Assembly (NCBI GenBank): GCA_036497565.1
Contig: DASXJE010000306.1
Location: 1-42,850, forward strand
Length of the DNA: 42,850 nt
Direction: 5' to 3'
Origin: Mycobacteriales bacterium
GTDB lineage: Bacteria > Actinomycetota > Actinomycetes > Mycobacteriales > QHCD01
Position numbers and translations under genes: made by a program
Shown here: piece by piece, positions 13,010 to 42,417 of the stretch
Layout: each line of letters opens with the position of its first letter
Numbering within the stretch: the first letter of the stretch is position 1
Notes under the pieces: generated by a model
What the model was told of the DNA's origin: nothing
Databases searched by the model: none
Seen by the model: the letters and a program-made list of their open reading frames with translations, nothing else

Positions 13010-13071
13010 CTGGGGCCCCCCTTTGTCGATATCTGGACGGATGACACGCGTGTGTGCCCCTGGCGCCGAAG

Positions 13072-17123: not shown

Positions 17124-17143
17124 GCCCGGTCCGGCACGGTCCG

Positions 17144-17166
17144 CCAGTCCGACGTCCAGTCCGACG
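17144..17166 (+). repeat. Short tandem repeat, two copies of CCAGTCCGACG
   Basis: Two copies of an 11-nt unit lie one base apart between the binding-protein stop and the AGGAGG of the DUF885 gene. They could mark a slipped duplication or a weak intra-operon RNA element. No function is evident. Confidence 0.4.
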
Positions 17167-17187
17167 CTCAGGAGGCAGTACACAGTC

Positions 17188-21687: not shown

Positions 21688-21709
21688 CCGACCCTGGCAG
21701 GGAGCAGAC

Positions 21710-25402: not shown

Positions 25403-25452
25403 GGCGCAACCGCCCCTTCGTTACGGTCAAGGCGGAAGGAGCGGTGATATCG

Positions 25453-26043: not shown

Positions 26044-26964
26044 TCAACCACCGCCGATGAGACGGTCGATGTCGCGCGGGCCCGGGAGGCTCGACCGGGC
26101 ACCGGTGGCGCGGGTCGCGAGGGCTCCCGCCGCCGCACCGACCAGTACGGCGCGATCGACGTCGTCACCACGGGCGAGCGCCCACGCCAACCCGCCGCAG
26201 AACGCATCACCGGCTCCGGTCGTGTCCGCCGCGTCGACGGGGAATGCCGCCTGGTGATGAGGCTCCCGGTCGGCACGCCACACGTCGGCACCGCGGCGGC
26301 CGTGGGTCACGACGACGACTTCGGGCCCGGACCGTAGAAGTGCTGCCACGTCGACCACTCCGAGGTAGTCGACCTCGTGCTGGTTGGGGACCAGGATGTT
26401 GCACGCGCGCAGCAACTCCGGGGCGAGCGGGTGAGCCGGCGCCGGATTGACGACGACCGTGAATCCGCGTTCGGCGGCGCGGACGGCGGCGGCGATCGCC
26501 GTCTCGGACGGAATCTCGAGCGAGATGAGGACGACGGCATCGTCGAAACGCTCGAGGACGTCGCGGACGTATTCGGGGGAGAGCAGGGCATTGGCCCCCG
26601 GGTCGACGACGATCACGTTCTCCCCGTCGTCGGCGACGAGAACCGTGGCGGTTCCGGTACGACGGTTTCCAACCTGCAGGGCCGAGACATCCACGCCGGC
26701 GGCCCGCAGGCCGGCGTCGGCGTCCTTGCCCGCGTCGTCGGCGCCGACGCATCCGATCATCGTCGTGGGCGCCCCGAGCCGGGCGGCCGCGCAGGCCTGG
26801 TTTCCGCCCTTGCCGCCATCGCGGGTCTCCACCGAGGTCGCAAGAACCGTTTCGCCCGGACGGGGAATGGCCGGCACCCGCATCACGACATCAGCGTTGA
26901 GGGAACCGACGACGACCACCGGCAAGGTCGTCGTCGTCGGCAGGCCGGACGCGGTGTTGCTCAC
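26044..26964 (-). CDS. rbsK: Ribokinase (PfkB family)
   Basis: Phosphorylates ribose, or a related sugar, at the 5-hydroxyl using ATP. The 306 aa contain the ribokinase segments VVGSLNADVVMRVPAIPRPGET, GGKGGNQACAAARLGA and the C-terminal ATP/anion-hole signature DTTGAGDAFCGGLAWALARG with the catalytic Asp. GGKGGNQA is the classical ribokinase substrate motif, although deoxyribokinases and related enzymes share it. The ATG overlaps the stop of the 701-aa ADP-ribosylglycohydrolase-family gene by 4 nt, so the two are made together. That coupling suggests that the glycohydrolase frees a pentose which this enzyme then phosphorylates. Confidence 0.88.
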   Translation of the reverse strand: MSNTASGLPTTTTLPVVVVGSLNADVVMRVPAIPRPGETVLATSVETRDGGKGGNQACAAARLGAPTTMIGCVGADDAGKDADAGLRAAGVDVSALQVGNRRTGTATVLVADDGENVIVVDPGANALLSPEYVRDVLERFDDAVVLISLEIPSETAIAAAVRAAERGFTVVVNPAPAHPLAPELLRACNILVPNQHEVDYLGVVDVAALLRSGPEVVVVTHGRRGADVWRADREPHHQAAFPVDAADTTGAGDAFCGGLAWALARGDDVDRAVLVGAAAGALATRATGARSSLPGPRDIDRLIGGG

Positions 26965-29066
26965 CTCTGCGCAGCGGGTTGAGCGCGTACGTAGTCGCAG
27001 CCGACCCGGCCCTCATCGCAGATCAGGGCGATTCCCCCACCGTCGAGCGGCCGCTGCGCGTCTTCGACGTCGAACAAGCTCTGCCCGTCGACCGATGCCT
27101 GCACGCGGGAACCGTGGACCTGAACGGTCAGGGTGTAGCTGCGGCCGAGCTCCCAGTCGAGGGACGACTCCGCGAGTACGCGCTCCCCGTCGAGTGACTT
27201 GATCAACTCGACGCGGCCGGTGTTCCGGACGACCAGCGCGTAGTAGCGACGCAGCCCCTGGACCCGCGCGGCGAGACCGAACGCCTCGGCCATGTGGGGC
27301 GTGAACGTCGCCGTGACCTGGTAATCCCGCCACTCGCCGGTGCCATGGAGGAGCAGCCCGCGTCCGTCGTTCTGGATCAGGCGATACGCCTCGGGCCATC
27401 GGGGACTGAACTGGTCGAGGCCGTCGACCCATGCGCGCCGCCACATCGTGCCGCCGTCGGCGGGTCGGGTGAGTGTGACATCGGGCGCACCCTGCCAGCT
27501 CACCTGATCGAGGTAGATCGCCCCCGGTGTGCTGGCGCCGCCCTCGAGGACCAGGCCGACCGACTGGATCGGCTGACCGGCCGTGTCGGGGACCGACCAG
27601 GTCACCTCACCCACCGCTCCGGGCCGCAGGGTCATCGCCGGGCCGTCGATCGCGACCAGTTCGTCGTTGCCGTCGTAGTGCCTGATCGTCAGCCGGCATA
27701 CGGTGTCGTGCTCGTTGCCGGCGTCCGCGGATAGAACGGCCCGGACGCGCTGCCCGCTGTAGAGCGTCGGCGACGCCAGCAGCTGATAACCCGGCATGTT
27801 CGCCGCCTCGGGCGGGATGAAGGTCGGCGTCGAGACCTCGACCGCCGCGCTGCCGGACGAGGGACGGATCGCCAGGCTCCGGTCGCCGTCCGAGCTGTGT
27901 CCCTCGACGTTCTCGAGATCGGCGCTGCCCCGCTCGACATGGAAGCCCTGCACCGAGCCCGGCAACTCGAAATGGAATCTGGCGCCGTCCTTCGGACGGC
28001 TCGGCGGTTCACCGACCAGGGCGCGGCCGACGTTGGCGATGTGGACCGCCTCGGTGGCAATGTCGGTGATGGATCGGCCGCCGTCCGCGGTGGGCAGGTA
28101 GATCCGGTCGGCGACCGGACCACGCCAGTCGCGGTCACTGTCGAAACCGCTGAGGCCGTTGCGGATCCCGAGCAGGCAACCCAGGTTGCCGGAGTTGCAG
28201 TCGGTGTCCCAGCCGCAGGTGTTGACGATCATCATCGAGCGGTCCCACTCGCCGGCGCCGTAGAGCAGCGCAAGGACGATCAGACCGTGGTTCGGAATGA
28301 CGTGACAATTTCCGCCGTAGACGTCGTAGCCGTATTTCGCGGCGAGAAGCTCCCGCGCCTTGCGCCAGTCCGGTTCGCTCGCATGCCACCCGCGGATGTC
28401 GCGCACCATCGTGGCGATGATGCAGTCGGCCGGGATGACCGACAGTCCCGTGTCGAGAAGGAGATCGATGTCGCTCTCGACGAATGCCTGTGCCTCCATC
28501 GCCGCGAGAGCCTGCGCCGCGTAGACCGCCTCGCCGTCATGACTCACGGTGCCCGCACGGCGGGCCAACTCGGCCGCCAGCTCGGGGCGGCCGGGGGCCA
28601 CCATCGCCCACCCGTCGATGAAGATCTGTGCCCCGATCTGCTCGGCGACGATCTGGCCGTTCAGCTCCATCGCCCCGCTGCGGGGAGCCTCGATACCGCG
28701 TTTGAGCCGGAGAAACGCGGTGTGCTCCGTCGAGTTGCCCAAGCCTCCCCACCAGAGGATGGCGCGATTCTCGACGATGTAGTTCAGCCAGGTCTGGCCG
28801 ATCTGAGCCGGGGTGATCCCGACGTCGTTGCCGTAGTCGGGGAGTGCCCGCAGAAACGTGAAGGTGCCGGCGATGTCGTCGTCGGTGACCAGCAGCGGCA
28901 CGCCGACCTTCTCGTGGACGTAGTAGTCGATCTCGCCGAGCTGGGCCATGATGCGCTCGTAGGACCAGCCTTCGAATGGCCGGCCCAGGTACACACCGAG
29001 GGACTTGCCGAGAGCACCGGAATACACGCGGTCGGCGTAGTCGGCAGGAAGCGAAGTCTGAGCCAC
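26961..29066 (-). CDS. ADP-ribosylglycohydrolase-family protein with C-terminal jelly-roll domain
   Basis: The 701 aa have an N-terminal ADP-ribosylglycohydrolase (ARH/DraG) domain: metal-binding TDDDIAGTF near residue 63 and WDTDCNSGNLGCLLG near residue 290, where the family has its two Mg-site acidic clusters. Residues about 365 to 701 are beta-rich. The last 130 residues (WRDYQVTATFTPHMAEAFGLAARVQG and onward) resemble a concanavalin/DUF1080-like jelly roll, suggesting carbohydrate binding. No signal peptide is present. The GTG was chosen for GGAG 9 nt upstream; a TTG 15 nt further up is possible. A LacI-type operator lies about 70 nt upstream. It is coupled to ribokinase by an ATGA overlap. 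Confidence 0.85.
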   Translation of the reverse strand: MAQTSLPADYADRVYSGALGKSLGVYLGRPFEGWSYERIMAQLGEIDYYVHEKVGVPLLVTDDDIAGTFTFLRALPDYGNDVGITPAQIGQTWLNYIVENRAILWWGGLGNSTEHTAFLRLKRGIEAPRSGAMELNGQIVAEQIGAQIFIDGWAMVAPGRPELAAELARRAGTVSHDGEAVYAAQALAAMEAQAFVESDIDLLLDTGLSVIPADCIIATMVRDIRGWHASEPDWRKARELLAAKYGYDVYGGNCHVIPNHGLIVLALLYGAGEWDRSMMIVNTCGWDTDCNSGNLGCLLGIRNGLSGFDSDRDWRGPVADRIYLPTADGGRSITDIATEAVHIANVGRALVGEPPSRPKDGARFHFELPGSVQGFHVERGSADLENVEGHSSDGDRSLAIRPSSGSAAVEVSTPTFIPPEAANMPGYQLLASPTLYSGQRVRAVLSADAGNEHDTVCRLTIRHYDGNDELVAIDGPAMTLRPGAVGEVTWSVPDTAGQPIQSVGLVLEGGASTPGAIYLDQVSWQGAPDVTLTRPADGGTMWRRAWVDGLDQFSPRWPEAYRLIQNDGRGLLLHGTGEWRDYQVTATFTPHMAEAFGLAARVQGLRRYYALVVRNTGRVELIKSLDGERVLAESSLDWELGRSYTLTVQVHGSRVQASVDGQSLFDVEDAQRPLDGGGIALICDEGRVGCDYVRAQPAAQR

Positions 29067-29119
29067 GCGGCGACGCTCCAATCACGGGTCGGCCGGCGCC
29101 CGCATGCGGCCCGGCCAGG

Positions 29120-29149
29120 TTGACGAGCTATGGTCTACTCGTGTAGCTG
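29120..29149 (+). promoter_or_regulatory. Predicted lacI promoter containing the operator
   Basis: TTGACG at 29120-29125 and TAGCTG at 29144-29149 are 18 bp apart. The operator palindrome lies between and over these elements, as expected if the regulator limits its own synthesis. The -10 hexamer is imperfect, so the confidence is modest. Confidence 0.45.
29134..29147. promoter_or_regulatory. LacI-type operator, copy 1 (lacI / ARH-ribokinase divergent promoter)
   Basis: TCTACTCGTGTAGC has CTAC/GTAG arms around the central CG, the usual layout of LacI-family sites. It lies between the 701-aa ARH gene (minus) and the LacI gene (plus). Its arms match three other copies near 30392, 39744 and 39868. 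Confidence 0.82.
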
Positions 29150-29308: not shown

Positions 29309-30334
29309 GTGATCACGAGGAACGACGTGGCACGCCGCGCCGGCGTGTCTACCGCAGTCGTGAGCTATGTGCTCAACGACGGGCCGCGGCCGGTCGCCCC
29401 GGCCACCCGCGCGCGGGTTCTCGAGGCGATCAGCGACCTGGGCTACCGGCCCAATGGTGTGGCGCGGTCCCTGCGGACCAAGCGCACCCGCGCCGTCGGG
29501 CTGATCCTCCCCGACATCGCCAACTCCTTCTTCGCCCAGCTCTCCCGCGAGGTCGAGCTCGCCGCATTCTCGCGGGGATTCACCCTGCTGGTGGGCAATG
29601 CGATGGACGACAGCGCGCGGGAATTGCTGTATGCCCACGCCTTCGTGGAGCGTCGGGTCGACGGGGTGGTCGTCGTGTCGGCCGGCGAGGACGTCGGCGC
29701 GATCAAGGTTCTGGCTGCGGCCGACATGGCGCTGATCACCATCGACCGGAGCATTCCCGGCGCCGGGGTCTCGTCCGTGCACGTCGACAACCGGCACGGT
29801 GGTTTCCTCGCCACGAAGCACCTCATCGAGCACGGGCACCGACGAATCGCCTGCCTCGCCGGCCCCGATACCGTGAACAACGCGGTCGAACGCCGCCGAG
29901 GCTGGGAGGCCGCGCTGCAAGAGGCCGGACTGAGCGCTCCAGACGGGCTGGCGATGGCCTCGGAGAGCTTCTCGCGGGAGGCGGCCTACCGATCCACCCG
30001 CAAGGTCCTCGGTCGACGTAACCCGCCGACGGCGATCTTCGCCGGCGCGGACGAGCAGGCGCTCGGCGTATACCGTGCCGCGGCAGCCACCGGCCGGCGG
30101 GTTCCCGACGATCTGGCCGTCGTCTCCTTCGACAGCGCCGAAACCGCCCCGTATCTGGTGCCCGGCCTCACCGCCGTCCGGCAGCCGGTGGCGCTGATGG
30201 CCGGTCTTGCGATGGACCGCCTCGTCGCGCAGCTCTCCGACCTGTCCGGACCACCCACCCAGGACACCCTCTCGGTCGATCTGGTCGTCCGGGGTTCCTG
30301 CGGCTGCCCTGACTCCGAGCCCCGCAGCAGCTGA
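29309..30334 (+). CDS. LacI-family transcriptional repressor
   Basis: The 341 aa begin with the LacI helix-turn-helix (VITRNDVARRAGVSTAVVSYVLNDG) and hinge helix (NGVARSLRTKRT), followed by a periplasmic-binding-protein-like effector domain (VGLILPDIANSFFAQLSREVE, FAGADEQALGVYRAA, DLAVVSFDSAETAPYL). AAGGAGG lies 4-5 nt before the GTG; longer in-frame starts would place non-family residues before the HTH. It is surrounded by the operators it probably binds. The effector is expected to be a sugar or sugar derivative related to the imported substrate. The untranslated leader is long, about 150 nt. Confidence 0.93.
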   Translation: MITRNDVARRAGVSTAVVSYVLNDGPRPVAPATRARVLEAISDLGYRPNGVARSLRTKRTRAVGLILPDIANSFFAQLSREVELAAFSRGFTLLVGNAMDDSARELLYAHAFVERRVDGVVVVSAGEDVGAIKVLAAADMALITIDRSIPGAGVSSVHVDNRHGGFLATKHLIEHGHRRIACLAGPDTVNNAVERRRGWEAALQEAGLSAPDGLAMASESFSREAAYRSTRKVLGRRNPPTAIFAGADEQALGVYRAAAATGRRVPDDLAVVSFDSAETAPYLVPGLTAVRQPVALMAGLAMDRLVAQLSDLSGPPTQDTLSVDLVVRGSCGCPDSEPRSS

Positions 30335-30388: not shown

Positions 30389-30408
30389 CGATCTACTCGG
30401 GTAGATCG
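30389..30408. promoter_or_regulatory. LacI-type operator, copy 2 (importer operon)
   Basis: CGATCTACTCGGGTAGATCG has perfect 8-bp arms around TCGG with a central CG. It is the strongest of the four copies and begins at the predicted transcription start of the importer operon, 20 nt past lacI-to-SBP promoter elements. Confidence 0.88.
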
Positions 30409-30529: not shown

Positions 30530-31894
30530 ATGCAGGTGCCACCCGGCTTGTCACGTCGGCGCTTTCTGGCGGTCTGCGGCCAGGCGACTGCCGCCACCGG
30601 CCTGCTCGCCGCCTGCGGGAGCGGAGGACTCGGCGGCGACAGCATCGCCACCTGGGCCGCCTTCAGCGACAGCGCGACTCAGAAGTACTTCCAGTCCCAC
30701 ACGATCGACGACTACAACAAGACCGCCAAGACCAAGATCGAGCTGTCGGTCAAGCAGACCGCCACGATCAATCAGCTCATGCAGACCTCGCTCGCCTCGG
30801 GCCGTGGACCGGACGTGATCGGCAGCGACGGGCCGACGATCGTCGTCGACTTCGCCGACGCCGGCTATTTGATGCCGCTCGACGCCTACAGCAAGAAGTA
30901 CGACTGGACGTCGAAGGTCCAGAAGTGGGCGCTACAGACCGGTGTGACCGGTGGGAAGCTCTACGGGATCCCCACGTCGTACGAGTCGATGGTCATGCTC
31001 TACAACACGAAGACCTTCAAGAAGTACGGCTGGAGCCCGCCGACGACTAGGGCCGACTTCGAGAAGATCGCCAACGAGGCGAAGGCAAAGGGGATGACAC
31101 CGGTCGCGGCCGGCAACGCCGAGTTCCGGAAGGCCACCGAGTGGCATGTGACGGCGATGTTCAACAACTACGCCGGTCCGAAGGCGGTCTACGCGGCGCT
31201 CAAGGGGCAGAAGTCGTGGACCTCACCGGAGTTCGTCCAGTCGATCGCCCTGCTCCAGAAGTACTTCCAGGAGAACTGGTACGGCGGGGGCACGGAAAAC
31301 TACTTCACCTACAAGTTCGCCGATCTCTATAACCAGTTGGCCGAGGGCAAGGCGGCCATGATGTTCACCGGATCGTGGGGCTTCGACGAGATCGGCCCGT
31401 ACTTCGGCAAGGCAGCGGGCAACAACGCGGACTGGAACTGGGCCCCGGTGCCGAGGTTCTCGGCGACCGCGCCCACGGACAGCTTCGTCCTGGCCATCGG
31501 TGGCGACCAGTCGATCAACAAGAAGTCCAAGCACGCCGATGACGCCGCGGCTTTCCTGAACTGGACGCTGGACCCGAAGCGGGCGACCGCCGCGGTGGCC
31601 GCCGTGTCTGCCCAGCTTCCGCCGATCAAGGTTCAGCCGAGCGACTTCCCGGCCGGCGTGGACCCCCGGCTCAAGCAGTTCTACCTCGATCTGAACTCGG
31701 CGAAGAACGTCGGCTACGCCACCTGGTCGTCGTTCCCGCCGCAGACCGACACCTACATCTACCAGTCCATGGACAAGGTGATCACCGGCAAGATGACCCC
31801 GCAGGCCTTCTGCGCCGGTCTCGACCAGGTGTTCAAGCCGGAACTCAAGGCGGGCAAGGTGCCACCACTGGCGTTGCCCACCGCGGGTGCGTGA
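30530..31894 (+). CDS. Sugar-binding lipoprotein of ABC importer, Tat-exported (SBP family 1)
   Basis: The 454 aa start with a twin-arginine signal (SRRRFLAV, Arg9-11) that ends in the lipobox LLAAC (Cys29), so the protein would be exported folded and anchored outside the membrane. The body follows sugar-binding family 1 (TSLASGRGPDVIGSDGP, YGIPTSYESMVMLYNTKTFKKYGW, AAMMFTGSWGFDEI). GGAGG lies 6 nt before the ATG; an ATG 15 nt upstream is in frame but has no such site. It is the first gene of an eight-gene run. Confidence 0.93.
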   Translation: MQVPPGLSRRRFLAVCGQATAATGLLAACGSGGLGGDSIATWAAFSDSATQKYFQSHTIDDYNKTAKTKIELSVKQTATINQLMQTSLASGRGPDVIGSDGPTIVVDFADAGYLMPLDAYSKKYDWTSKVQKWALQTGVTGGKLYGIPTSYESMVMLYNTKTFKKYGWSPPTTRADFEKIANEAKAKGMTPVAAGNAEFRKATEWHVTAMFNNYAGPKAVYAALKGQKSWTSPEFVQSIALLQKYFQENWYGGGTENYFTYKFADLYNQLAEGKAAMMFTGSWGFDEIGPYFGKAAGNNADWNWAPVPRFSATAPTDSFVLAIGGDQSINKKSKHADDAAAFLNWTLDPKRATAAVAAVSAQLPPIKVQPSDFPAGVDPRLKQFYLDLNSAKNVGYATWSSFPPQTDTYIYQSMDKVITGKMTPQAFCAGLDQVFKPELKAGKVPPLALPTAGA

Positions 31895-32832
31895 CGGTGG
31901 CCTTCCCAGGAGGTGCGTCGGCGACCGTCGAGCCCCCCGCGACGGCGCCGGCGCGGTCGGACCGTCGGCAGGGCTCCAAGAAGGGCGGGTCCAGACGGGG
32001 TCTGATCGCCTGGCTGTTCATGCTGCCGCTCATCGTGGTCAACCTGCTGGTGATCGCGGGCCCAGGCGTCCTGAGCGTGTACTACTCGTTCACCGACTGG
32101 AGCGGCATCGGCGGTTCCCACTTCATCGGGATCGCGAACTACCGGAAGATGTTCACTGACAGTGCGTTCGGGGACGCTTTCCTGCACAACGTGTGGTGGA
32201 CGCTGTTTTTCCTGATCGTGCCGATGGGGATGGGGCTCTTCGGGGCCTATCTGCTTTCCCGGCTCCGCCGCTTCGTCACCCTCTTCCGCGTCATCTACTT
32301 CGTCCCGTACATCGTCGCCAGCGTCGTGAGCGCGAGCATCTGGCAGTCGCTGCTCTCTCCTGAGCACGGGATCGGCAAGTTCCTCGGCGTCAACTTCCTG
32401 GGCAACAGCAGCACCGCACTGCCCTCGGTCGCGGTGGTCAACACGTGGTCGTGGTGGGGATTCCTGGTTATCGTCTTTCTCGCGGCGATGCAGGGCGTCA
32501 ACCCGTCCCTCTACGAGGCCTCGGGTCTCGACGGCGCGAACTCATGGCAGCAGTTCTGGCACGTCACGCTGCCGTCCATCCGGCCGACGCTGATGTTCCT
32601 CGGGCTCATGACGATCATCTGGTCGTTCCTCGTCTTCGACTACATCTACATCCTCACCCAGGGTGGCCCGGCGGGCGCCACAGAGGTCCTCAGCACCCTG
32701 CAGTACCGGGACGCATTCGAAAACCAGCAGGCCGGCTACGCGGCCGCGATCGGAGTTGTGCTCGCCTTGATCTCGGGAGTCGTCGTCGCCTCGTACCAGA
32801 TCCTGCGCCGGCGGAGGGACTGGGACATATGA
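31891..32832 (+). CDS. Sugar ABC importer permease, MalF type
   Basis: The 313 aa have a basic N-terminus and six predicted helices, starting with LIAWLFMLPLIVVNLLVIAGPGVLSVYYSF. The ATPase-docking EAA loop is EASGLDGANSWQQFWHVTLPSIRPTL, typical of the carbohydrate CUT1 group. The GTG overlaps the binding-protein stop as GTGA, and the end overlaps the next permease as ATGA. No dedicated ATPase is encoded nearby, so a shared MsiK-like ATPase elsewhere probably drives it, as is common for CUT1 systems in actinobacteria. Confidence 0.92.
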   Translation: MTVAFPGGASATVEPPATAPARSDRRQGSKKGGSRRGLIAWLFMLPLIVVNLLVIAGPGVLSVYYSFTDWSGIGGSHFIGIANYRKMFTDSAFGDAFLHNVWWTLFFLIVPMGMGLFGAYLLSRLRRFVTLFRVIYFVPYIVASVVSASIWQSLLSPEHGIGKFLGVNFLGNSSTALPSVAVVNTWSWWGFLVIVFLAAMQGVNPSLYEASGLDGANSWQQFWHVTLPSIRPTLMFLGLMTIIWSFLVFDYIYILTQGGPAGATEVLSTLQYRDAFENQQAGYAAAIGVVLALISGVVVASYQILRRRRDWDI

Positions 32833-33704
32833 CCGTCGCCGCGCCGTCGATCCCGCGCAACGTCCGAAGCAGTCATCCCAGCCGCTCGCGGGCGCCGCAT
32901 CCGGCGTTCTACCTCGTCCTCATCGTGCTGTTCGCCTTCGCGCTCGGCCCGATCGTCATCTTCGTCTTCGATTCGCTCAAGTCGCAGAGCCAGCTCGCGG
33001 CCGACCCGCTCGGCCTGCCCTTGCACCCGCAGTGGCACAACTTCAGCGATGCGTGGAGCCAGGCCGCGATGGGTGCGGGATTCGTCAACAGCGCGGTCAT
33101 CGTCGTGGGAACGATGGTCGGCGTGTGTGTCATCGCCGGCTCCGGCGCCTACGCGATGTCCCGCCTCGACCTGCCCGGCTCCGGCGGGGTCATGGCCTAC
33201 CTGCTCGTCAGCAGCTCCCTGCCGATCCAGCTCTTTCTCGTGCCGCTCTTCTTCCTGTGGACCCGGCTCGGGCTCTACGACACGCTCTTCGGCCTGATCA
33301 TCATCTACTGGGCCATCTTCTCGCCGTTCGCAACGTTGCTGCTCCGCTCGTTCATGATCAGCATCCCGCACGACTACGACGACGCGGCCCGCATCGACGG
33401 CGCCGGCGAGTGGGCCGTCCTGTTCCGGATCGTGCTGCCGATCGCCTGGCCGGGATTCCTCACGGTCGCGCTCGTGTCGGCGCTGTCGGCGTACAACGAG
33501 TTCCTGCTCGCGGTGACTTTCATCCAGACGAATGGCAAGATGCCGATCTCCACGACGTTCTTCGCCTTCCAACAGGGCTTCACTCAGAACTATGCTCTGA
33601 TCAGTGCCGCGGGAGTGATCATGCTGGCGCCGATGGTGATCCTCTTCCTGCTCCTGCAGCGCCGCTTCGTCGACGGCATCACCGCCGCCGGACTCGGCGG
33701 CTAG
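32829..33704 (+). CDS. Sugar ABC importer permease, MalG type
   Basis: The 291 aa have six predicted helices, with an N-terminal FYLVLIVLFAFALGPIVIFVFDSLK, the family segment SSSLPIQLFLVPLFFLWTRLGLYDT and the EAA loop DAARIDGAGEWAVLFRIVLPIAWPG. Together with the MalF-type permease it forms a CUT1 carbohydrate channel. The ATG overlaps the previous stop by 4 nt. The 48 nt to the next gene show only an AGGAGG ribosome site. Confidence 0.92.
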   Translation: MTVAAPSIPRNVRSSHPSRSRAPHPAFYLVLIVLFAFALGPIVIFVFDSLKSQSQLAADPLGLPLHPQWHNFSDAWSQAAMGAGFVNSAVIVVGTMVGVCVIAGSGAYAMSRLDLPGSGGVMAYLLVSSSLPIQLFLVPLFFLWTRLGLYDTLFGLIIIYWAIFSPFATLLLRSFMISIPHDYDDAARIDGAGEWAVLFRIVLPIAWPGFLTVALVSALSAYNEFLLAVTFIQTNGKMPISTTFFAFQQGFTQNYALISAAGVIMLAPMVILFLLLQRRFVDGITAAGLGG

Positions 33705-33752: not shown

Positions 33753-34163
33753 GTGAGCGTCGAGCCGCAGGCCGACAAGAACATCGATGGGGAACCCGCC
33801 CACACCACCTCGATCGACACCGCGGCCGCGGAGGAGTCCGAGTGGGGGTCGATCCGCTGGCTGTGCAACGACGCGATCCGCCCGGGCGCGGGCCTCACGG
33901 TCGGCTTCGTGCAGATCAACCCGGGCATGGCCAATCCCCGGCACTACCACCCCAACACCGAAGAATTGCTGTTCCTGATCGAGGGTGAACTCGACCACGC
34001 GGTCGGCGACGACGTCGTCCACCTGACCGCCGGGACGACCGTGCACATCCCGGCGGGGGTCGAGCACCAGGGGGTCAACCGCGGCACATCGGTCGCCCGC
34101 ATGGTGGTCTCCTACCCCACCGGCGACCGGCAGACCGTCGTCCGCGGCGGCGGGAGCGAGTAG
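33753..34163 (+). CDS. Cupin-domain protein
   Basis: The 136 aa form a single cupin barrel with a full metal site: RHYHPNTEE supplies His64, His66 and a Glu (70/71), and IPAGVEHQ supplies His105. Small cupins in sugar-catabolic operons are often isomerases, epimerases or lyases for sugars or sugar acids; I cannot tell which. The gene starts with GTG after an AGGAGG site, and its last base is the first base of the following dehydrogenase start codon. Confidence 0.86.
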   Translation: MSVEPQADKNIDGEPAHTTSIDTAAAEESEWGSIRWLCNDAIRPGAGLTVGFVQINPGMANPRHYHPNTEELLFLIEGELDHAVGDDVVHLTAGTTVHIPAGVEHQGVNRGTSVARMVVSYPTGDRQTVVRGGGSE

Positions 34164-35212
34164 TGGCCTACCAGCGGGAGTACGACCGCAGGTTGCGGGT
34201 CGGTCTCGTCGGCGCCGGGAGCCACGCCTACCGCAACGTCCTTCCGGCGCTGCACCATCTCCCCGTGACCCTGTCCGGGATCTGCGACCTCGATCGTCAG
34301 CTCGCCGAGCGCACCGCCTCCGAGTACGGCGTGCCAGCCTTCTCCGGTGCGGCGGAGATGTATGCCGCGGTCGATCTCGATGCGGTCCTGGTCTGCGCCG
34401 GCCCACGCCAGCATCCCGACCTCGCCGTGGAGGCGCTGAGTGCCGGCCTCCACGTCTGGATGGAGAAGCCGCCCGGCCTGTTCGCGGCCGACGTCGAGAA
34501 GATCATGGCCGCCAGGGGAGACCGGGTCTGCGCCGTCGGCTTCAAGAAGGCGTACCAGCCCGCGGTCCGCAAGGCCAAGGAGCTCATGGCGTTGCCCGAG
34601 TTCGGAGCGCTGCGATCGGTGCTCGCCGTTTATCCCATGACGATGCCCGCCGACGGTGCGGGCGTGCTCAGCCGGCGGGAGACCACCAACTGGCTGAACA
34701 ACGGATGCCACCCGCTCTCCCTCATGATCGAGGTCGCCGGCGACGTCGAGTCGGTCCGCACGGTCGTCGGACCCGGTGACGCCGCCGTGGGGTCGGTGAA
34801 CCTCACCTTCGCCGGCGGAGCGGTCGGCACTTTCTTTCTCGCCGGCGGCGCACCGCACGGCTACCCGATCGAGCGTTACGACCTCATCGGCGAGGGTCGG
34901 TCGATCACGATCGACAACAGCGCGCGGGTGTCCTTCCACCGCGGGATTCCGTTCGACTACACGCGGCAGACGGACTTCACCGGGCCGGGCACGGAAACCG
35001 GGAGTGTCGTGTGGGAGGCCGAGCATCGGCTGGCGACGCAGGAGAATTCCGGCCTCTTCGTGCAGGGCATGTTCTTCGAGCTGTCCGACTTCTGCGGCGC
35101 AATTCTCGATCACCGCCCGCTCCGCAGCGGTGATCTGCCTTTCGCCCTTCAGGTCATGCGGGTCTACGAAGCCGGCTTGCGGAGCACCGGCGACGTCGTA
35201 CCCGTCGGGTGA
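34163..35212 (+). CDS. Gfo/Idh/MocA-family oxidoreductase, copy 1
   Basis: The 349 aa have an N-terminal NAD(P) Rossmann fold, VGLVGAGSHAYRNVLPAL, then the family hallmark MEKPPG in HVWMEKPPGLFAADVEKIM, with the catalytic lysine. The C-terminal domain is a beta-sheet substrate lobe (RETTNWLNNGCHPLSLMIEVAGDVESV). The family oxidises or epimerises sugars, inositols and glycosides. The start GTG overlaps the cupin stop by 1 nt. A closely related gene follows, so the pair may act on one sugar at different steps or form a mixed complex. Confidence 0.9.
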   Translation: MAYQREYDRRLRVGLVGAGSHAYRNVLPALHHLPVTLSGICDLDRQLAERTASEYGVPAFSGAAEMYAAVDLDAVLVCAGPRQHPDLAVEALSAGLHVWMEKPPGLFAADVEKIMAARGDRVCAVGFKKAYQPAVRKAKELMALPEFGALRSVLAVYPMTMPADGAGVLSRRETTNWLNNGCHPLSLMIEVAGDVESVRTVVGPGDAAVGSVNLTFAGGAVGTFFLAGGAPHGYPIERYDLIGEGRSITIDNSARVSFHRGIPFDYTRQTDFTGPGTETGSVVWEAEHRLATQENSGLFVQGMFFELSDFCGAILDHRPLRSGDLPFALQVMRVYEAGLRSTGDVVPVG

Positions 35213-35237: not shown

Positions 35238-36302
35238 GTGACCGACCTCACCTTCGCCTACGAGGCCAAGCAGCCGCTGCGGGTGGCCTTCCTCGGCACG
35301 TCCGGGCACGCATACCGCAACTTCCTGCCGTCGCTCGCCTACGCCGCGGTGGATCTGGTCGCCATGTGGGACCCCGATCCGGACCGGGCCGAGTCCTTCG
35401 CCCGCCAGTTCGGAGCCGGGGACGCCTACACCGACCTCGACCTGCTGCTCCGTGACGTCGAGCCTGATGCCGTACTGATCGGCGTCGACGGCTACCTCGA
35501 CGGCGATCCGTTGAACACGTCGCTGATGGCCCGCTGCCTCGAGGCGGGCTGTCACGTGTGGACGGACAAGCCCGTCGCGGCCAGCTCGGCGAGCGTGGAG
35601 AAGCTCATCGATCTGCGTGACCGGGCCGGTCGGGTGGCCGCGGTCGGCGCGAAGACCATGTACAACCCCGCCCACCTCAAGGCGCGGCAGATCATGCGCG
35701 GCCCGGACTTCGGGCGACCCGCATCGTTCTCCGGTCGCTACCCGCTGCACGTCCCCCGCCAGCCCGGGCTGCCGCTGTCCGACCCCCAGGTGCGCAGCTG
35801 CCTCAACCACATCTGGCATCCGGTCGGCGCCGCACTGGTCACGGTCGGCGAGGTGGCTGCCGTCTCCTACGTGCCCGCGCCGGTCGGCAACGGCGGGGTG
35901 GCGATTGTGACGTTCGCCGACGGCACCGTCGGCACCTTCCACTTCAGTGCCGGTCAGGCGGCGACGAGTCCGCTCGAGCGGGTCGAGATCGTGGGCGAGG
36001 GCTCGAACATCGTCATTGACAACGGCGCCCGACTGACCTGGTACCGGCGCGGAGATATCGGGCCTTACGGCAGGACACCGAGCTACATCACCGATGACGA
36101 GACCGCGCCGCTGCGGTGGGAGCCGGAGATGAGCCTCGGCCAGCTCTACAACAACAACAACTTCGTCCAGGGCTACGCCCAGAGCATCATCGCCTTCGTC
36201 GATGCCGCCCTCGGGATCGCGCCGCTCGAATTCGGCACGCTCGAGGACGCGGTGTCGATCGTGCGGGTCTTCGAGATGTTGGCGGAGCCGGCGACCGCCT
36301 AG
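35238..36302 (+). CDS. Gfo/Idh/MocA-family oxidoreductase, copy 2
   Basis: The 354 aa share the layout of copy 1: VAFLGTSGHAYRNFLPSLAY as nucleotide motif, TDKPVAASSASVEKLI as the catalytic Lys-Pro segment, and a C-terminal lobe with LNHIWHPVGAALVTVGEVAAVSY. Copies 1 and 2 share SGHAYRN/GSHAYRN and GEG-(R/N)-ITIDN/IVIDN segments, so they arose from one duplication. GGAGG lies 6 nt before the GTG. Here the usual EKP is DKP. Confidence 0.9.
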   Translation: MTDLTFAYEAKQPLRVAFLGTSGHAYRNFLPSLAYAAVDLVAMWDPDPDRAESFARQFGAGDAYTDLDLLLRDVEPDAVLIGVDGYLDGDPLNTSLMARCLEAGCHVWTDKPVAASSASVEKLIDLRDRAGRVAAVGAKTMYNPAHLKARQIMRGPDFGRPASFSGRYPLHVPRQPGLPLSDPQVRSCLNHIWHPVGAALVTVGEVAAVSYVPAPVGNGGVAIVTFADGTVGTFHFSAGQAATSPLERVEIVGEGSNIVIDNGARLTWYRRGDIGPYGRTPSYITDDETAPLRWEPEMSLGQLYNNNNFVQGYAQSIIAFVDAALGIAPLEFGTLEDAVSIVRVFEMLAEPATA

Positions 36303-36345: not shown

Positions 36346-37605
36346 GTGCCAAACGTGGTGCTCCTGGGGACGCTGGATACCAAGGGCCAGGAATACGCAT
36401 TCGTCCGTGACCAGATCGCGGCTGCCGGGGTCACCACGACGGTGGTCGACGCCGGAGTGTTCGACAGCCCATTCCTCGAACCGGACGTCCGCCGCGACGA
36501 GGTGGCGCAAGCGGCCGGCGTCGACCTGCAGACGCTCGCGGACGCCGGAGACCGGGGCAGCGCGGTCGAGAGCATGTCGCGCGGAGCCGAAGCGGTGGTG
36601 CGGCGGCTCCACGACGAGGGACGGCTCGACGGGATCATCGGTCTCGGGGGCACCGGTGGGACAACGCTCGTCACGCGGGCCATGCGGGCCCTGCCGGTGG
36701 GCGTGCCGAAGGTGATGGTGTCGACCGTCGCGTCGGGGGATACGCGGCCCTACGTCGGCGCCCTCGACATCACGATGATGTATTCCGTCGTCGACATCGC
36801 CGGCGTCAACAAGATCTCGCGTCGCATCCTCACCAACGCCGCGGGCGCCGTCTCCGGGATGGTGCTGGCACCGTCGGCCGACGGCCCGGCCGGAGACGAC
36901 CGGCCTCTGATCGGTGCGACGATGTTCGGTGTCACGACACCGTGCGTGCAACGGGCCCGGCAACGGCTCGAGGACAAGGGCTACGAGGTGCTGGTCTTCC
37001 ACGCCACCGGCACCGGGGGCCAGTCCATGGAGGCCCTCGCCCGGGCCGGACTGCTCGCCGGGGTGCTCGACATCACGACGACGGAGCTCGCCGACGAACT
37101 GGTCGGTGGCGTCTTCTCCGCCGGGCCGGAGCGCCTGACCGTGGCCGGGGCAGCCGGCATCCCACAGGTGGTGAGCCTGGGGGCGCTGGACATGGTGAAC
37201 TTCGGCGCCCGGGACAGCGTGCCGGTCCAGTTCGAGGACCGCAATCTCTACCAGCACAACGCGACGACCACCCTGATGCGTACCACGCCGGAGGAGACGG
37301 CGGAGCTCGGCCGCCGGGTCGCCGAGCGTCTCAACACTGCGACCGGGCCGGTCACGCTCTTCATCCCGCTGCGCGGTATCTCGATGATCGCCACCGAGGG
37401 ATCCGCCTTCTACGACGACGAGGCCGATCGCGCGCTCATCGGCGCCGTCAAGGACAACCTGACCGAGCGGATCGTCCTGTGCGAGGTCGACACCGACATC
37501 AACGACGAGGCCTTCGCCGTCGCGATGGCCGACGCGCTCGTCGACCAGCTGGCCGGTACGCCGGCCGAGGAAGGGACCCCAGGTGGACGCGCAGACCGCA
37601 CGTGA
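36346..37605 (+). CDS. UPF0261 / Tm-1-like ATP-binding domain protein
   Basis: The 419 aa match UPF0261, the family of the N-terminal half of tomato Tm-1, which binds ATP and inhibits tobamovirus replication. Visible hallmarks are [63 protein letters not shown], and [15 protein letters not shown] followed by [15 protein letters not shown]. The bacterial role is unknown. The frame overlaps the next gene by 23 nt. In Tm-1 the two domains are one chain; here they are two adjacent genes. Confidence 0.9.
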
Positions 37606-38407
37606 ACGGTTGATCGCCCAGGCTGCCAAGGGAAATGCCATCGTCGGCGCCGGTGCCGGGACCGGCCTCTCGGCCAAGTGCGCCGAGGCCGCCGGCGTCG
37701 ACCTGATCATCATCTACAACTCGGGTCGCTACCGGATGGCCGGCCTCGGTTCGTTGGCCGGCCTGCTGCCCTACGGGGACGCCAACGCTGTGGTCGTCGA
37801 CATGGCACGGGAGGTGCTCCCGATCGTCGAGTCGACACCGGTGCTGGCGGGAGTCTGCGGGACCGACCCGTTCCGCACCATGCCGGTATTCCTCCGGCAG
37901 CTGCAGGACCTCGGATTCGCCGGTGTGCAGAACTTCCCGACTGTCGGTCTTTACGACGGGCGCTTCCGGCAGAATCTCGAGGAGACCGGGATGGGTTACC
38001 ACCACGAGGTGGAGATGATCCGGGTCGCACACGAGATGGACCTGTTGACGACCCCCTACGTGTTCGACGCCGAGCAGGCGGTCGCGATGACCGCGGCCGG
38101 CGCGGACGTCGTGGTCGCTCACGTCGGTCTGACGACGTCGGGCACGATCGGGGCGCAGACCGCCGTCAGCCTGGACGAGGCCGTCGAGCTCGTCCAGGAG
38201 ATCAGGGACGCCGCCGTGAGTGTCCGCGACGATGTGCTGGTCCTCTGCCACGGAGGGCCGATCGCCATGCCCGACGACGCCGCCTACGTGTTGCGGCACA
38301 CCACGGGGGTGGCCGGCTTCTTCGGCGCATCCAGCATGGAGCGGCTCCCGACCGAGGTGGCGATGACCGAGGCAATCGCCAAGTTCAAGGCCGTGACGGT
38401 GGACTGA
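37583..38407 (+). CDS. Phosphoenolpyruvate hydrolase-like TIM-barrel protein (Tm-1 C-domain type)
   Basis: The 274 aa form a TIM barrel with [71 protein letters not shown] and [16 protein letters not shown]. This is the family of the Tm-1 C-terminal half, named for its likeness to PEP mutase/hydrolase enzymes. AGGAAGGG lies just upstream of the GTG, which is inside the end of the UPF0261 gene. The bacterial substrate is unknown. The pair presumably forms one complex or one two-step reaction. It is the last gene of the importer operon; a 5-bp hairpin at 38405-38419 spans its stop and the convergent stop. Confidence 0.88.
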
Positions 38408-38416: not shown

Positions 38417-39721
38417 TCACAGCCGGTCGCGGAGCCGTACGGTCCGGTCGGCGAGGTCGCTGATCCGCGAGGAGTCGAAGCCGAACACCGCCGACTGCAC
38501 GGAGTCGGCCAGCGGATCGACCCAGTGCGCGGGCAGGTCGGCGGCGCCGGCGAGGACACCGGCGACCGAGCCGACCGTCGCCCCGTTGGAGTCGGTGTCC
38601 ATGCCGGCCTGGACGGTCAGCCCGATCGCCCGGGTGAAATCGCCGTCCGCCCACAACAGCCCGACCGCCACCGCCGCGGCGTTGTTGATCGTGTGGACCC
38701 AGTGGTAATGGCCGTAGCGCTTGTCGATCTCGGCCTGTGCCCGGTCCCACGACAGTCCGTCGGAGTGCCAGTCGAGTACGTCGCGCAGGGCCTCCGCCAG
38801 GCGGGACTGCGGCGGGATGTGCCGCACGGACTCCTCGATCGCTGCCCGGGCGCTGCCGGCGGTGAAGGCCGCGGCATTGAGGGCCGCCGACCACATCTCG
38901 CCGTAGATGCCGTTACCTACGTGGGACAGCGCGGCGTCGGCGTAGGCGAGCGTCGCCGCGCGGCGCGGATCGCCCGGGTTGACCCATCCGAAGATGTCGG
39001 CCCGGATCTGGGCGCCGATCCACTCGCGGTAGGGGTTGCGGTAGGTCGCCGTCTCCGGCGGCTGCAGGCCGTGGACGAGGTTGCGGATCGCGACCCGCTC
39101 GGCCGTGTAGGTCTGCAGGAACGGCAGCAGGGACAGCCATTCCTGGCCGACGTCGCGCGACGCGAACCCGGTCCCGTAGGTCTCGAGCAGGTGCAGGTTG
39201 AGGATCGGGTAGTCGATGTCGTCGTCCCGGGCCGAGCCGTGGATGTTGCCACGCGTCGTCTGCGGCCAGTTGGGCCGGAAGACGAAGCCGTCGGGCATCG
39301 GGTCCAGGACGGGGAAGTAGTCGGTGAGCGGGTAGGACTCGGCCCGCTGCAGATAGTCCCGGATGTGTGCGCGGGTCCAATGATCGCCGTTCTCCACGGG
39401 CTTACCGAGATTGCAGCCGGCACACCGGCCGAGCCAGGCACCGAGGATGCGGTTGCGGTAGTCGGTCGCGGACAGTGTGCCGACCGGACCCGCCGCGGGG
39501 AGGGTCGCCTCGATCTCGCCGAGGGCGTCCGGCTCCTCGTACGACCAGCCGTCGCGACGGGGCGCGTCGGCGAGCCGATCGACGAGCGACCACAACCGGG
39601 CCGAGTCGTCGGGATCGGTGCGGGCCGCCTCGGCCGCGACCTCGTCGACCTCGTAACCGGTCTCGCGCCGCTGGGCCAGCTCGTCGTGCAGCATGTCGGC
39701 CGCCGACAGTGCGTCGTGCAT
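38417..39721 (-). CDS. ADP-ribosylglycohydrolase-family protein (434 aa)
   Basis: After an N-terminal extension of about 85 residues (EVAAEAARTDPDDSARLW), the ARH domain begins at YRNRILGAWLGRCAGCNLGKPVE. The metal clusters are present as ARDDDIDYPILNLHLLETYG and GMDTDSNGATVGSVAGVLAG. Its DDDI/DTDxN pattern is closer to the 701-aa protein than to the 380-aa protein. It is cytoplasmic, with no signal peptide. An operator lies 23 nt upstream of the ATG, and a promoter is predicted behind it. Whether it acts on ADP-ribose or on another N- or O-glycoside is unknown. Confidence 0.87.
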   Translation of the reverse strand: MHDALSAADMLHDELAQRRETGYEVDEVAAEAARTDPDDSARLWSLVDRLADAPRRDGWSYEEPDALGEIEATLPAAGPVGTLSATDYRNRILGAWLGRCAGCNLGKPVENGDHWTRAHIRDYLQRAESYPLTDYFPVLDPMPDGFVFRPNWPQTTRGNIHGSARDDDIDYPILNLHLLETYGTGFASRDVGQEWLSLLPFLQTYTAERVAIRNLVHGLQPPETATYRNPYREWIGAQIRADIFGWVNPGDPRRAATLAYADAALSHVGNGIYGEMWSAALNAAAFTAGSARAAIEESVRHIPPQSRLAEALRDVLDWHSDGLSWDRAQAEIDKRYGHYHWVHTINNAAAVAVGLLWADGDFTRAIGLTVQAGMDTDSNGATVGSVAGVLAGAADLPAHWVDPLADSVQSAVFGFDSSRISDLADRTVRLRDRL

Positions 39722-39743: not shown

Positions 39744-39757
39744 TCTACGCGAGTAGA
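39744..39757. promoter_or_regulatory. LacI-type operator, copy 3 (434-aa ARH gene)
   Basis: TCTACGCGAGTAGA, or TCTACTCGCGTAGA on the other strand, has perfect 5-bp arms and a central CG. It starts 22 nt upstream of the ATG of the 434-aa ARH gene and lies at the predicted transcription start on the minus strand. Confidence 0.85.
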
Positions 39758-39867: not shown

Positions 39868-39881
39868 TCTACTCGTGTAGA
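39868..39881. promoter_or_regulatory. LacI-type operator, copy 4 (380-aa ARH gene)
   Basis: TCTACTCGTGTAGA has perfect 5-bp arms around a central CG. It lies 18 nt upstream of the ATG of the 380-aa ARH gene and begins at the predicted transcription start, where a bound repressor would block initiation. Confidence 0.87.
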
Positions 39882-39899: not shown

Positions 39900-41042
39900 A
39901 TGACGACGCTGGCCGATCGCGCGGCGGGCTGCCTTTCCGGTGCGGCCGTCGGCGATGCGCTCGGGGGACCGACAGAGGGCTGGACCACCGATCAGATCCG
40001 CCAGCGCTATGGCGGATTCGTCGAAGACATCGTGCCGCCGTACTTCGCCGACTGGCGGGGCGCCCGGCCCAATTCGCCGTACCACAAGGGCGACGGCCAC
40101 GTCACGGATGACACGTTGATGACACAGGCCTTCGCCCGGGCCTATCTGCGTAAGCAGGACCACCTCGATGCCTACGACGTCGAGAGCCTGCTGGTGCCGC
40201 AGATGGTTGACGACTCAAGGTGGATTCCTGAGCTCGAGACCGAAGCGCCGTTGTTGCGCCGGGTCTTTCTCGCGGAGAAGTGGCTGGTGCTGCGGCTGGC
40301 CTACGGTCACGTGGATCCACGTGAGGCGGGGACCGGAAACATCGTCAACTGCGGTGCGGCCATGTACATCGCGCCGGTCGGCATCGTCAACGCCGGCGAC
40401 CCGGACGGTGCCTACGCCGAGGCCATCGACGTCACCGGAGCCCACCAGTCCAGCTACGGCCGGGAGGCGGCCGGGGTGCTGGCCGCCGCGGTCGCCGCGG
40501 CGCTCGACCCCGATGCCACCGTGGAATCGGTCGTGGCCACTTGCCTCCGAGTGGCCAAGGACGGCACCCGCGCGGCGATCGAGGCCGTGTGCGATGCGGC
40601 GGCGTCGATCACTGAGTGGTCGGCCGCCCTCGGGCCGCTCCGGGACGCGATCCGGCCGTTCGATACCGTCGCCGACGACTACCGCGAGCCGGGCCTGGCC
40701 GCCCGCCGGCCGAGCCGGCTCCATGCGATCGAGGAGTTGCCGGTGGCCCTCGGCATGCTGCTCGTGGCCCGCGGCGACTACGTCCCCACCGTGCTCGGTG
40801 GCGTCAACTACGGGCGCGACGCCGACTCGATCGCGTCGATGGGTGGCGCACTCGCCGGTGCGCTCGGCGGGCTGGCCGCGGTGCCGGAGAAATGGCGCAC
40901 CGAGGTCGCCGCCGCGAGCCGCCTCGACATCGAAGGCCAGGGGCGCCAGCTCGCCCGGCTCGCGGTCGACATCTTCACCCGCGACGACCGGAGGCATCGG
41001 GATCGGGCCGCCCGGCTGTCCCGCCTGACCGCCGACACGTAA
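39900..41042 (+). CDS. ADP-ribosylglycohydrolase-family protein (380 aa)
   Basis: The 380 aa have the classical ARH/DraG start, MTTLADRAAGCLSGAAVGDALGGPTEG, with the TDDT metal cluster in GHVTDDTLMTQAF and the second cluster in YGRDADSIASMGGALAGALGG. Both Mg-site clusters are intact, so the protein should be catalytically active. It belongs to a different branch from the other two ARH proteins, which have DDDI and DTDxN. The ATG is 18 nt after the operator; a GTG 6 nt earlier is also possible. It is followed by the LarA-like gene after 76 nt. Confidence 0.9.
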   Translation: MTTLADRAAGCLSGAAVGDALGGPTEGWTTDQIRQRYGGFVEDIVPPYFADWRGARPNSPYHKGDGHVTDDTLMTQAFARAYLRKQDHLDAYDVESLLVPQMVDDSRWIPELETEAPLLRRVFLAEKWLVLRLAYGHVDPREAGTGNIVNCGAAMYIAPVGIVNAGDPDGAYAEAIDVTGAHQSSYGREAAGVLAAAVAAALDPDATVESVVATCLRVAKDGTRAAIEAVCDAAASITEWSAALGPLRDAIRPFDTVADDYREPGLAARRPSRLHAIEELPVALGMLLVARGDYVPTVLGGVNYGRDADSIASMGGALAGALGGLAAVPEKWRTEVAAASRLDIEGQGRQLARLAVDIFTRDDRRHRDRAARLSRLTADT

Positions 41043-41118: not shown

Positions 41119-42417
41119 ATGCAGGTGTCGCTCGCCTACGGGCAGACCAGGCTGGCGGTCGACCTGCCGGACGCCGCGACGACGGTCGTCGAACCGGCGT
41201 ACCAGCCGGCCGCCGCGGACCCGGCGCGGCTGCTTCGGGAGGCGGTGCGCAACCCGGTGGCCGGCAAGCCGCTGCGGGCCATCGTCCGTCCCGGCCAGAC
41301 CGTCGCGATCTCGCTGTGTGACGGCACCCGTCCCCAGCCGCGGCAACTGATGATTCCGGCGGTGCTCGAGGAGCTCGAGGGCATCGTGGGCCTGGACGAC
41401 GTCGTCCTGCTCGTCGCGACCGGCACCCACCGGGGCAACACCGACGCCGAGCTGCGGGCGATGCTCGGCGACGATCTCGTCGACACCGTACGGGTCGTCA
41501 ACCACGATTCCCGTGACGCCGGCGACCTGGTCTGGCGCGGTCACTACGGCAACGGCGTGCCGGTGTGGCTCAACCGGGAATGGGTGGCGGCCGACGTACG
41601 GATCACCACCGGCTTCGTCGAACCGCACTTCTTCGCCGGATTCTCCGGCGGTCCGAAGCTGATCGCGCCCGGCCTGGCCGCACTCGAGACCGTGCTGACC
41701 CTGCACGACGCGACCCGCATCGGCCACCCCGACGCCACCTGGGGCGTCATCGACGGCAACCCGGTGCACGACGACGTGCGGGCCATCGCCGCCGGTACTG
41801 GGGTCGACTTCGCGTTCGACGTGGTCCTCAACCGCGATCAGCAGATCGTCCAGGCGTTCGCGGGCGAGATGTTCGCGATGCACGCCGCCGCGTGCGCGGC
41901 GGCGAAGAGGGTGGCGATGCGTCCGGTGCCGGCGCCGTACGACGTCGTGGTCACGACCAACTCCGGCTACCCGCTCGACCAGAACCTCTACCAGGCGGTC
42001 AAGGGCATGTCCGCGGCCGCCAAGGTCGTGAAGCCGGGTGGGCTGATCGTCTGCGCCGCCGAGTGCCGCGACGGCTTCCCCGGCCACGGGTCCTACCGGC
42101 AGGTGCTCGCGTCCCGGCCCTCGCCCCGCGCCCTGCTCGATGCCATCGAGTCAGCCGACACGGTGACCCCCGACCAATGGCAGGTGCAGATCCAGGCCAG
42201 GATCCAGTGCCACGCCGAGGTCGTCATGCACACCGGATACCTCTCCGACGAGGAGCTGCGTACGGCGCACCTGACGCAGACCGACGACATCACCGGCACC
42301 GTCGCCGACGCGCTCGCGAAGGCCGGACCCGGTGCCCGGGTGTGCGTGCTCCCAGAGGGTCCGCAGACCATCCCCTATCTCGCGCCCGCCGCCGACTCGA
42401 CCGCGAGCCCGGCATGA
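41119..42417 (+). CDS. LarA-family nickel-pincer 2-hydroxyacid racemase/epimerase
   Basis: The 432 aa keep the residues known from Lactiplantibacillus plantarum LarA at a constant offset of four: Asp68 and Arg71 in CDGTRP (72, 75), His104 in ATGTHRG (108), His170 in EPHFFAGFSGG (174), Lys180 (184, which binds the nickel-pincer cofactor) and His196 (200, Ni ligand). The family racemises or epimerises 2-hydroxyacids, including sugar acids. AAGGA lies a few nt upstream of the ATG. The LarB/C/E cofactor genes are not in the window. It probably shares the operator-controlled transcript of the 380-aa ARH gene. Confidence 0.88.
   Translation: MQVSLAYGQTRLAVDLPDAATTVVEPAYQPAAADPARLLREAVRNPVAGKPLRAIVRPGQTVAISLCDGTRPQPRQLMIPAVLEELEGIVGLDDVVLLVATGTHRGNTDAELRAMLGDDLVDTVRVVNHDSRDAGDLVWRGHYGNGVPVWLNREWVAADVRITTGFVEPHFFAGFSGGPKLIAPGLAALETVLTLHDATRIGHPDATWGVIDGNPVHDDVRAIAAGTGVDFAFDVVLNRDQQIVQAFAGEMFAMHAAACAAAKRVAMRPVPAPYDVVVTTNSGYPLDQNLYQAVKGMSAAAKVVKPGGLIVCAAECRDGFPGHGSYRQVLASRPSPRALLDAIESADTVTPDQWQVQIQARIQCHAEVVMHTGYLSDEELRTAHLTQTDDITGTVADALAKAGPGARVCVLPEGPQTIPYLAPAADSTASPA

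Follow-up and report, generated by a model that had tools for sequence, protein, structure and literature searches.

Both the name of the ADP-ribosylglycohydrolase (ARH) family and the work done on its proteins concern the removal of ADP-ribose. Contig DASXJE010000306.1 of a Mycobacteriales bacterium, all 42,850 nt of which make up the window analysed here, carries an ARH-family gene, ARH1, whose end overlaps the start of a gene for a ribokinase-like protein, rbsK, beside genes for sugar transport and regulation. Why would such an enzyme be encoded next to a sugar kinase? Judging from sequence, we consider it slightly more probable than otherwise that these genes form a regulon under LacI control for the catabolism of an imported ribofuranoside. 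The preliminary description of this DNA had seen a two-gene system in ARH1 and rbsK. The pair is real, but that view was too narrow: the system takes in three ARH genes, an ATP-binding cassette (ABC) importer and acid-processing enzymes. The elements added here are the two further ARH genes, a carbohydrate-binding module (CBM)-like C-terminal half of ARH1, and shared predicted operators. The host genome (4.8 Mb, 97.8% complete) consists of 316 contigs with 4.4% estimated contamination, and given these figures misbinning of the contig is possible.

ARH1, rbsK and the shared predicted operators

ARH1 is read from a GTG at 29066 to a TGA stop at 26963-26961, with a GGAG Shine-Dalgarno-like motif about 9 nt 5' of the start. 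A longer form could begin at a TTG at 29081; homology, however, begins near residue 6. The predicted start of rbsK is the GTG at 26964-26962, and its stop lies at 26044. The two genes had been described as sharing a 4-nt ATGA overlap. Its length holds, but the minus strand at 26961-26964 reads 5'-GTGA-3', differing in the first base. A 4-nt overlap (ATGA or GTGA) of an ARH stop with an rbsK start occurs in 32 of 45 ARH-then-rbsK loci of related genomes, and in 28 of 38 after removal of duplicate loci. Because it recurs in these 28 distinct loci, and because yegU and yegV of E. coli share the same 4 nt, we conclude that the overlap is more than chance.

The whole genome holds exactly three PF03747 genes, all in the window: ARH1, ARH2 and ARH3 (171.4, 160.1 and 170.5 bits, respectively, against a curated cut-off of 26.2). 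All three match the two-metal motif E...DD...DxD, and the fold was modelled for ARH1 and ARH3. The metal ligands are E32, T61-D62-D63 and D287-T-D289 in ARH1, E110, D166-D167 and D375-x-D377 in ARH2, and E26, T69-D70-D71 and D307-x-D309-S in ARH3. The last ligand is Cys in window ARH1 and Ser in some orthologues. When window ARH1 was aligned with 49 orthologues (41-64% identity), E32, D62, D63, D64, D287, T288, D289 and H176 were invariant. Characterised ARHs share the motif E...[T/S]DDT...DTDT, and on the distal ribose both of their metals touch the 2'' and 3'' hydroxyls (PMC6309922). Characterised ARH1 and ARH3 are alike at the distal ribose site but not in how they recognise the adenosine side; in both, a histidine contacts the pyrophosphate (PMC6309922). 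Invariant H176 of window ARH1 is a candidate counterpart of this histidine.

A PDB search with the ARH1 sequence alone returned nothing useful; the structure model gave matches. In the AlphaFold model of ARH1 (predicted local distance difference test, pLDDT, 94.0), residues 6-356 form an ARH fold, with a VIA Z of 32.3 to characterised ARH3 and a range of about 30-32 for ARH3 and DraG. Residues from about 358 to 526 form a CBM-type beta-sandwich (VIA Z 17.1 to 2c26), and those from about 530 to 700 a CBM66 fold that matches the CBM66 of B. subtilis levanase (Z 21.6, root-mean-square deviation 2.0 Å, 155 residues). The best PDB matches of the ARH3 model are MJ1187, then DraG. The N-terminus of ARH1 shows no signal peptide, so the protein is probably cytosolic. 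As modelled, its domain architecture would befit a glycosidase more than a signalling ARH.

The window kinase is the sole clearly ribokinase-like protein of the genome (265.5 bits against TIGR02152; runner-up 111). In an alignment, it retains all seven ribose-site residues of E. coli RbsK (N14, D16, G42, K43, N46, E143 and D255), whose ribose-binding and catalytic roles we take to be those seen in the E. coli structure. Among order- and class-level relatives, almost every kinase encoded next to an ARH has all seven as well; two rows have Ser at position 14. The residues are altered in YegV (V14, C43, A143) and in a Chloroflexota group (D, A, S). Since these kinases fail the test, it discriminates.

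A palindrome, GATCTACTCGGGTAGATC, with the central CG of LacI-family operators, was read from the regulatory gaps. The core CTACNCGNGTAG has exactly 4 matches in the genome, all in intergenic gaps of this cluster: CTACTCGTGTAG twice, CTACGCGAGTAG, and the core of GATCTACTCGGGTAGATC (Table 1). A reversed control pattern gave 6 matches genome-wide, so the count for CTACNCGNGTAG is not itself enriched. Because all four matches fall in the gaps between them, ARH1-rbsK, the importer operon, ARH2 and ARH3-LarA are predicted to be one regulon to which the local LacI repressor would bind.

ARH neighbourhoods in related genomes

A match to ARH1 was detected in 48 of 299 order-level genomes. The 29 order-level loci examined have mostly ARH2-type genes, usually flanked on one side by ARH3, and in 22 of the 29 an rbsK gene lies no more than 1.5 kb from the ARH gene (about 13 come from one genus). 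Among 36 neighbourhoods picked for ARH genes, rbsK was present in 21, CoA-transferase III in 19, HpcH/HpaI lyase in 20, LacI in 27 and permeases in about 30. The genes usually follow in the order lacI, permease, permease, binding protein, ARH3, ARH2, rbsK, (glycoside hydrolase or FGE-like), CoA-transferase and HpcH/HpaI lyase, as in Nonomuraea gerenzanensis (L165). Sinorhizobium sp. B11 has lacI, permeases, binding protein, ARH3, an ARH1-like gene, UgpC, CoA-transferase and CoA lyase.

The operon is strongly conserved in loci L067-L070, L072-L074, L166, L168-L170, L173-L175, L180, L181 and L185. Its CoA-transferase is of type III, and a protein of about 650 aa with an FGE-like C-terminal domain, which is the conserved "FGE" of the relatives, is often added. 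FGE and sulfatases were considered as a general part of the system and dropped: the FGE piece in the window is unmatched in the relatives' loci, and sulfatases lie near ARH1 in few loci.

Full-length ARH1 orthologues are widespread, with 522 confirmed relatives from Chloroflexota, Bacillota, Armatimonadota, Poribacteria and others; 80 were kept, and their GTDB loci served for neighbourhood counts. ARH1 is often directly 3' of sugar permeases, which lie within 8 kb in 36 of the 80. One ARH1 relative has the order lacI-rbsK-RbsD-ARH1-binding protein-permeases (L065), and another ARH1-rbsK-nucleoside hydrolase-adenosine deaminase (L066). The RbsD, nucleoside hydrolase and adenosine deaminase neighbours point to ribose and ribosides. 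With the exception of PfkB, a Pfam tally of unlabelled ARH1 neighbours in the GTDB loci yielded scattered families only, so many of these neighbours are probably unrelated.

A group of Chloroflexota ARH1 loci carries a non-ribokinase PfkB gene (L131, L135, L137, L138, L140-L143 and L149). Pfam places histidinol-dehydrogenase-family and aminotransferase genes in L142, with relatives in most other Chloroflexota ARH1 loci of the group. These loci perhaps represent a related pathway for another sugar. It should also be noted that a large plasmid of Enterobacter hormaechei, pMB8072_1 (L162), carries lacI-ARH1-binding protein, a plasmid-borne form of the module, between the chitoporin and glnS genes.

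The proposed ribofuranoside pathway and its alternatives

In the proposed pathway, the CUT1 (MalF/MalG-type) ABC importer would bring in a ribosyl compound; importers of this type usually take oligosaccharides or glycosides, not free pentose. The two-metal centre of an ARH would hydrolyse the ribosidic bond, and the two CBM-like domains of ARH1 may hold the glycoside. An alpha-ribofuranoside is the first guess for the substrate anomer, since characterised ARHs, which bind ribose, cut alpha-linked ADP-ribose. RbsK would convert the ribose to ribose 5-phosphate, and the GTGA overlap would provide translational coupling of ARH1 and rbsK. Handling of the released aglycone is the weakest step. In the window it may fall to the Gfo/Idh/MocA, UPF0261/PEP_hydrolase-like and LarA-like proteins; the relatives may use their CoA-transferase and HpcH/HpaI CoA lyase. 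The relatives' CoA-transferase and CoA lyase, together with the LarA-like and PEP_hydrolase-like proteins of the window, suggest, speculatively, that the aglycone is perhaps a hydroxy- or sugar acid. We regard a wider proposal as possible though short of probable, in which two ARH subfamilies, the ARH1 type with its CBMs and the linked ARH2/ARH3 pair, together make up a large and so far unrecognised class of nutritional binuclear-metal furanosidases. They would cleave hydroxy-acid ribofuranosides, and the conserved pathway, itself undescribed, would lead from ABC import through ARH hydrolysis to RbsK, CoA-transferase and CoA lyase.

Several observations weigh against an imported ribofuranoside as the substrate. 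The window kinase does not reach the NCBI curated equivalog cut-off of TIGR02152 (299.65), and "ribokinase-like" is used as its label for this reason; its earlier identification as ribokinase is backed by the intact ribose residues and the best ribokinase-like match in the genome, but not by that cut-off. The operator motif was not found in the other loci examined, and its support comes from one genome. A PfkB kinase lies within 5 kb of ARH1 in just 17 of the 80 GTDB loci, and the ribose residues are missing in about 10 of these 17, as in the kinase beside ARH1 in the Chloroflexota group. In 37 of the 80, some on short contigs, none of kinase, importer or LacI accompanies ARH1. Since CBM66 is known from a levanase, a furanose other than ribose is conceivable, and the activities proposed for ARH1, ARH2 and ARH3 are predictions. 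The preliminary description had expected the pairing to recur in related genomes. This is the case for ARH and rbsK in general, but ARH1-rbsK is not an obligatory pair. Its riboside-breakdown module within a sugar regulon is favoured by the operators, the ribose residues, the conserved pairing and the RbsD, nucleoside hydrolase and adenosine deaminase neighbours, but not by its two-gene scope, the kinase score or the non-obligatory pairing.

The CBM66 likeness also bears on an alternative that we think unlikely, in which the ARHs are furanosidases for a non-ribose sugar, for instance in an arabino- or fructofuranoside. The kinase would then use the same sugar, or would only be co-regulated. 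Non-ribokinase PfkB kinases beside ARH1 in several Chloroflexota fit this idea, as do glycosidase genes adjoining ARH1, of the GH2 and trehalase families in Deinococcus aetherius and of the alpha-L-arabinofuranosidase C-terminal, GH4 and GH42 families in other loci. However, kinases beside ARH genes in order- and class-level relatives almost always have the seven ribose-site residues intact, RbsD and nucleoside hydrolase are among the neighbours, and characterised ARHs bind ribose. It is rather improbable that the ARHs act, like classical ARH/DraG proteins, on derivatives of ADP-ribose such as ADP-ribosylated proteins, ADP-ribose ethers and alpha-NAD, with rbsK only salvaging ribose. While the fold and metal ligands are the same as those of ARH3 and DraG, and H176 may correspond to the pyrophosphate-contacting histidine, the sugar importer, LacI regulator, operators and CBM-like domains speak against such a role. 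In addition, the GAAMR-type segment of YegU and MJ1187 is replaced in ARH1 and ARH2 (GAQI), and the annotated window genes showed neither an ADP-ribosyltransferase nor a nitrogenase gene.

The overlap of ARH1 and rbsK could also be ordinary operon packing with no biochemical link, since 4-nt overlaps are common in bacteria and ARH1 often occurs without rbsK. We give this little credence. The 22 of 29 order-level loci with adjoining ARH and rbsK were counted in flanks of just 1.5 kb, whereas about 10 PfkB genes per 4.8 Mb would put roughly 2% within 5 kb by chance, and there are further ARH-kinase pairs in E. coli and staphylococci (PMC3637587). If the locus does serve ribofuranoside catabolism, many bacterial "ADP-ribosylglycohydrolases" would be carbon-scavenging glycosidases, many gene annotations would change, and a conserved catabolic pathway would await discovery together with its natural substrate. 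The gene content hints at a substrate of ribose plus a carboxylic acid, a testable combination, and the pairing of ARH with a ribokinase-like protein recurs in many bacteria.

The remaining cluster and comparison with known systems

Table 1. Genes and predicted sites of the ARH cluster (window coordinates).
Feature	Coordinates	Strand	Remarks
rbsK	26044..26964	-	PfkB-family, ribokinase-like kinase; PF00294 E 1.5e-57; TIGR02152 below cut-off
GTGA overlap	26961..26964	-	rbsK GTG start / ARH1 TGA stop; from sequence
ARH1	26961..29066	-	701 aa; PF03747 E 4.5e-50; putative cytosolic ribofuranosidase; ARH fold + two CBM-type beta-sandwiches
Predicted LacI-type operator 1	29135..29146		CTACTCGTGTAG; between ARH1 and lacI
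LacI-family regulator	29309..30334	+	PF00356, PF13377; best NCBIfam models RbsR, all below cut-off
Predicted LacI-type operator 2	30393..30404		core of GATCTACTCGGGTAGATC; lacI/importer gap, 5' of importer operon
SBP_bac_1 sugar-binding lipoprotein	30530..31894	+	PF01547 E 3.9e-29; twin-arginine signal and lipobox visible
ABC sugar permease 1 (MalF/UgpA type)	31891..32832	+	PF00528; UgpA/MalF models
ABC sugar permease 2	32835..33704	+	PF00528 E 4.7e-19
Cupin protein	33753..34163	+	PF07883
Gfo/Idh/MocA dehydrogenase 1	34163..35212	+	PF01408
Gfo/Idh/MocA dehydrogenase 2	35238..36302	+	PF01408; start picked by eye
UPF0261 protein (Tm-1 N-terminal type)	36346..37605	+	PF06792, PF23189; start picked by eye
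PEP_hydrolase-like TIM-barrel protein	37583..38407	+	PF09370 E 6.2e-131
ARH2	38417..39721	-	434 aa; PF03747 E 1.3e-46; type kept beside ARH3 and rbsK in relatives
Predicted LacI-type operator 3	39745..39756		CTACGCGAGTAG; 5' of ARH2, divergent ARH2/ARH3 gap
Predicted LacI-type operator 4	39869..39880		CTACTCGTGTAG; 5' of ARH3, divergent ARH2/ARH3 gap
ARH3-type paralogue	39900..41042	+	380 aa from ATG 39900; PF03747 E 8.2e-50; model pLDDT 85.6
LarA-like (lactate-racemase family) protein	41119..42417	+	PF09861, PF21113

For the LacI gene, the list of open reading frames gives a start at 29219; the GTG at 29309 is preferred for its strong Shine-Dalgarno motif. No ATPase gene for the importer was identified among the annotated cluster genes. 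ABC sugar importers of MalF/MalG type often share an ATPase, and UgpC-type ATPase genes are present in alphaproteobacterial versions of the cluster. About 23 nt are shared by the UPF0261 and PEP_hydrolase-like genes, which split a Tm-1-type protein into two genes of a sugar operon. After the LarA-like gene, an FGE/SUMF1-like gene begins on the + strand at about 42434 and is cut off by the contig end at 42850.

On the other side of the cluster, a LOG-family gene (25399-26034, + strand; TIGR00730, cytokinin riboside 5'-monophosphate phosphoribohydrolase-like) is convergent with rbsK, their ends 10 bp apart, and is overlapped by 4 nt by a D-2-hydroxyacid dehydrogenase gene (24380-25402). Further away, positions 9937-22939 hold peptide-type ABC transporter, proline racemase, DHDPS-family, FAD oxidoreductase, DUF885, DUF1028 and amidohydrolase genes, a set that looks like hydroxyproline/peptide catabolism.

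The E. coli yegTUV operon resembles the window in that the ARH-family gene yegU overlaps the PfkB kinase gene yegV by 4 nt (ATGA) and shares its operon with a nucleoside-type transporter (PMC10819704). It comprises YegT (nucleoside:H+ symporter-like), YegU and YegV under the repressor GgaR/YegW; ADP-glucose has been proposed as the GgaR effector, and the YegU and YegV enzymes are uncharacterised (PMC10819704). Where E. coli has a symporter and a GntR-type regulator, the window has an ABC importer and LacI. Of the seven ribokinase ribose residues, all present in the window kinase, three are missing from YegV, and YegU lacks the CBM-like domains of window ARH1. In S. epidermidis, an ARH-family gene, a nucleobase-type permease gene and a ribokinase gene adjoin (SERP2218-2217-2216; PMC3637587, PMC3321955). 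This trio, known by annotation alone, differs in having a secondary permease in place of the ABC importer and one ARH in place of three. The rus locus of B. thetaiotaomicron, which we take to serve ribose scavenging through ribokinases, a nucleoside hydrolase and an ARH-family protein, differs in its SusC/D uptake. Ribokinase, SusC/D-type and nucleoside hydrolase genes are present in the BT2804 region (PMC10434189).

ARH3 and DraG share the fold (Z 30-32) and two-metal motif of window ARH1, but they are only 13-16% identical to it, have signalling or repair roles, and come without CBM domains or a sugar regulon. In the literature searched, we found no ARH with a carbohydrate-binding module and none biochemically linked to a ribokinase. 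The ARH-PfkB pairing itself is already known, from E. coli yegUV and staphylococcal SERP2216-2218; new here are three ARH genes in one predicted regulon, an ARH1 family that bears CBM-like domains, and conserved genes for acid processing.

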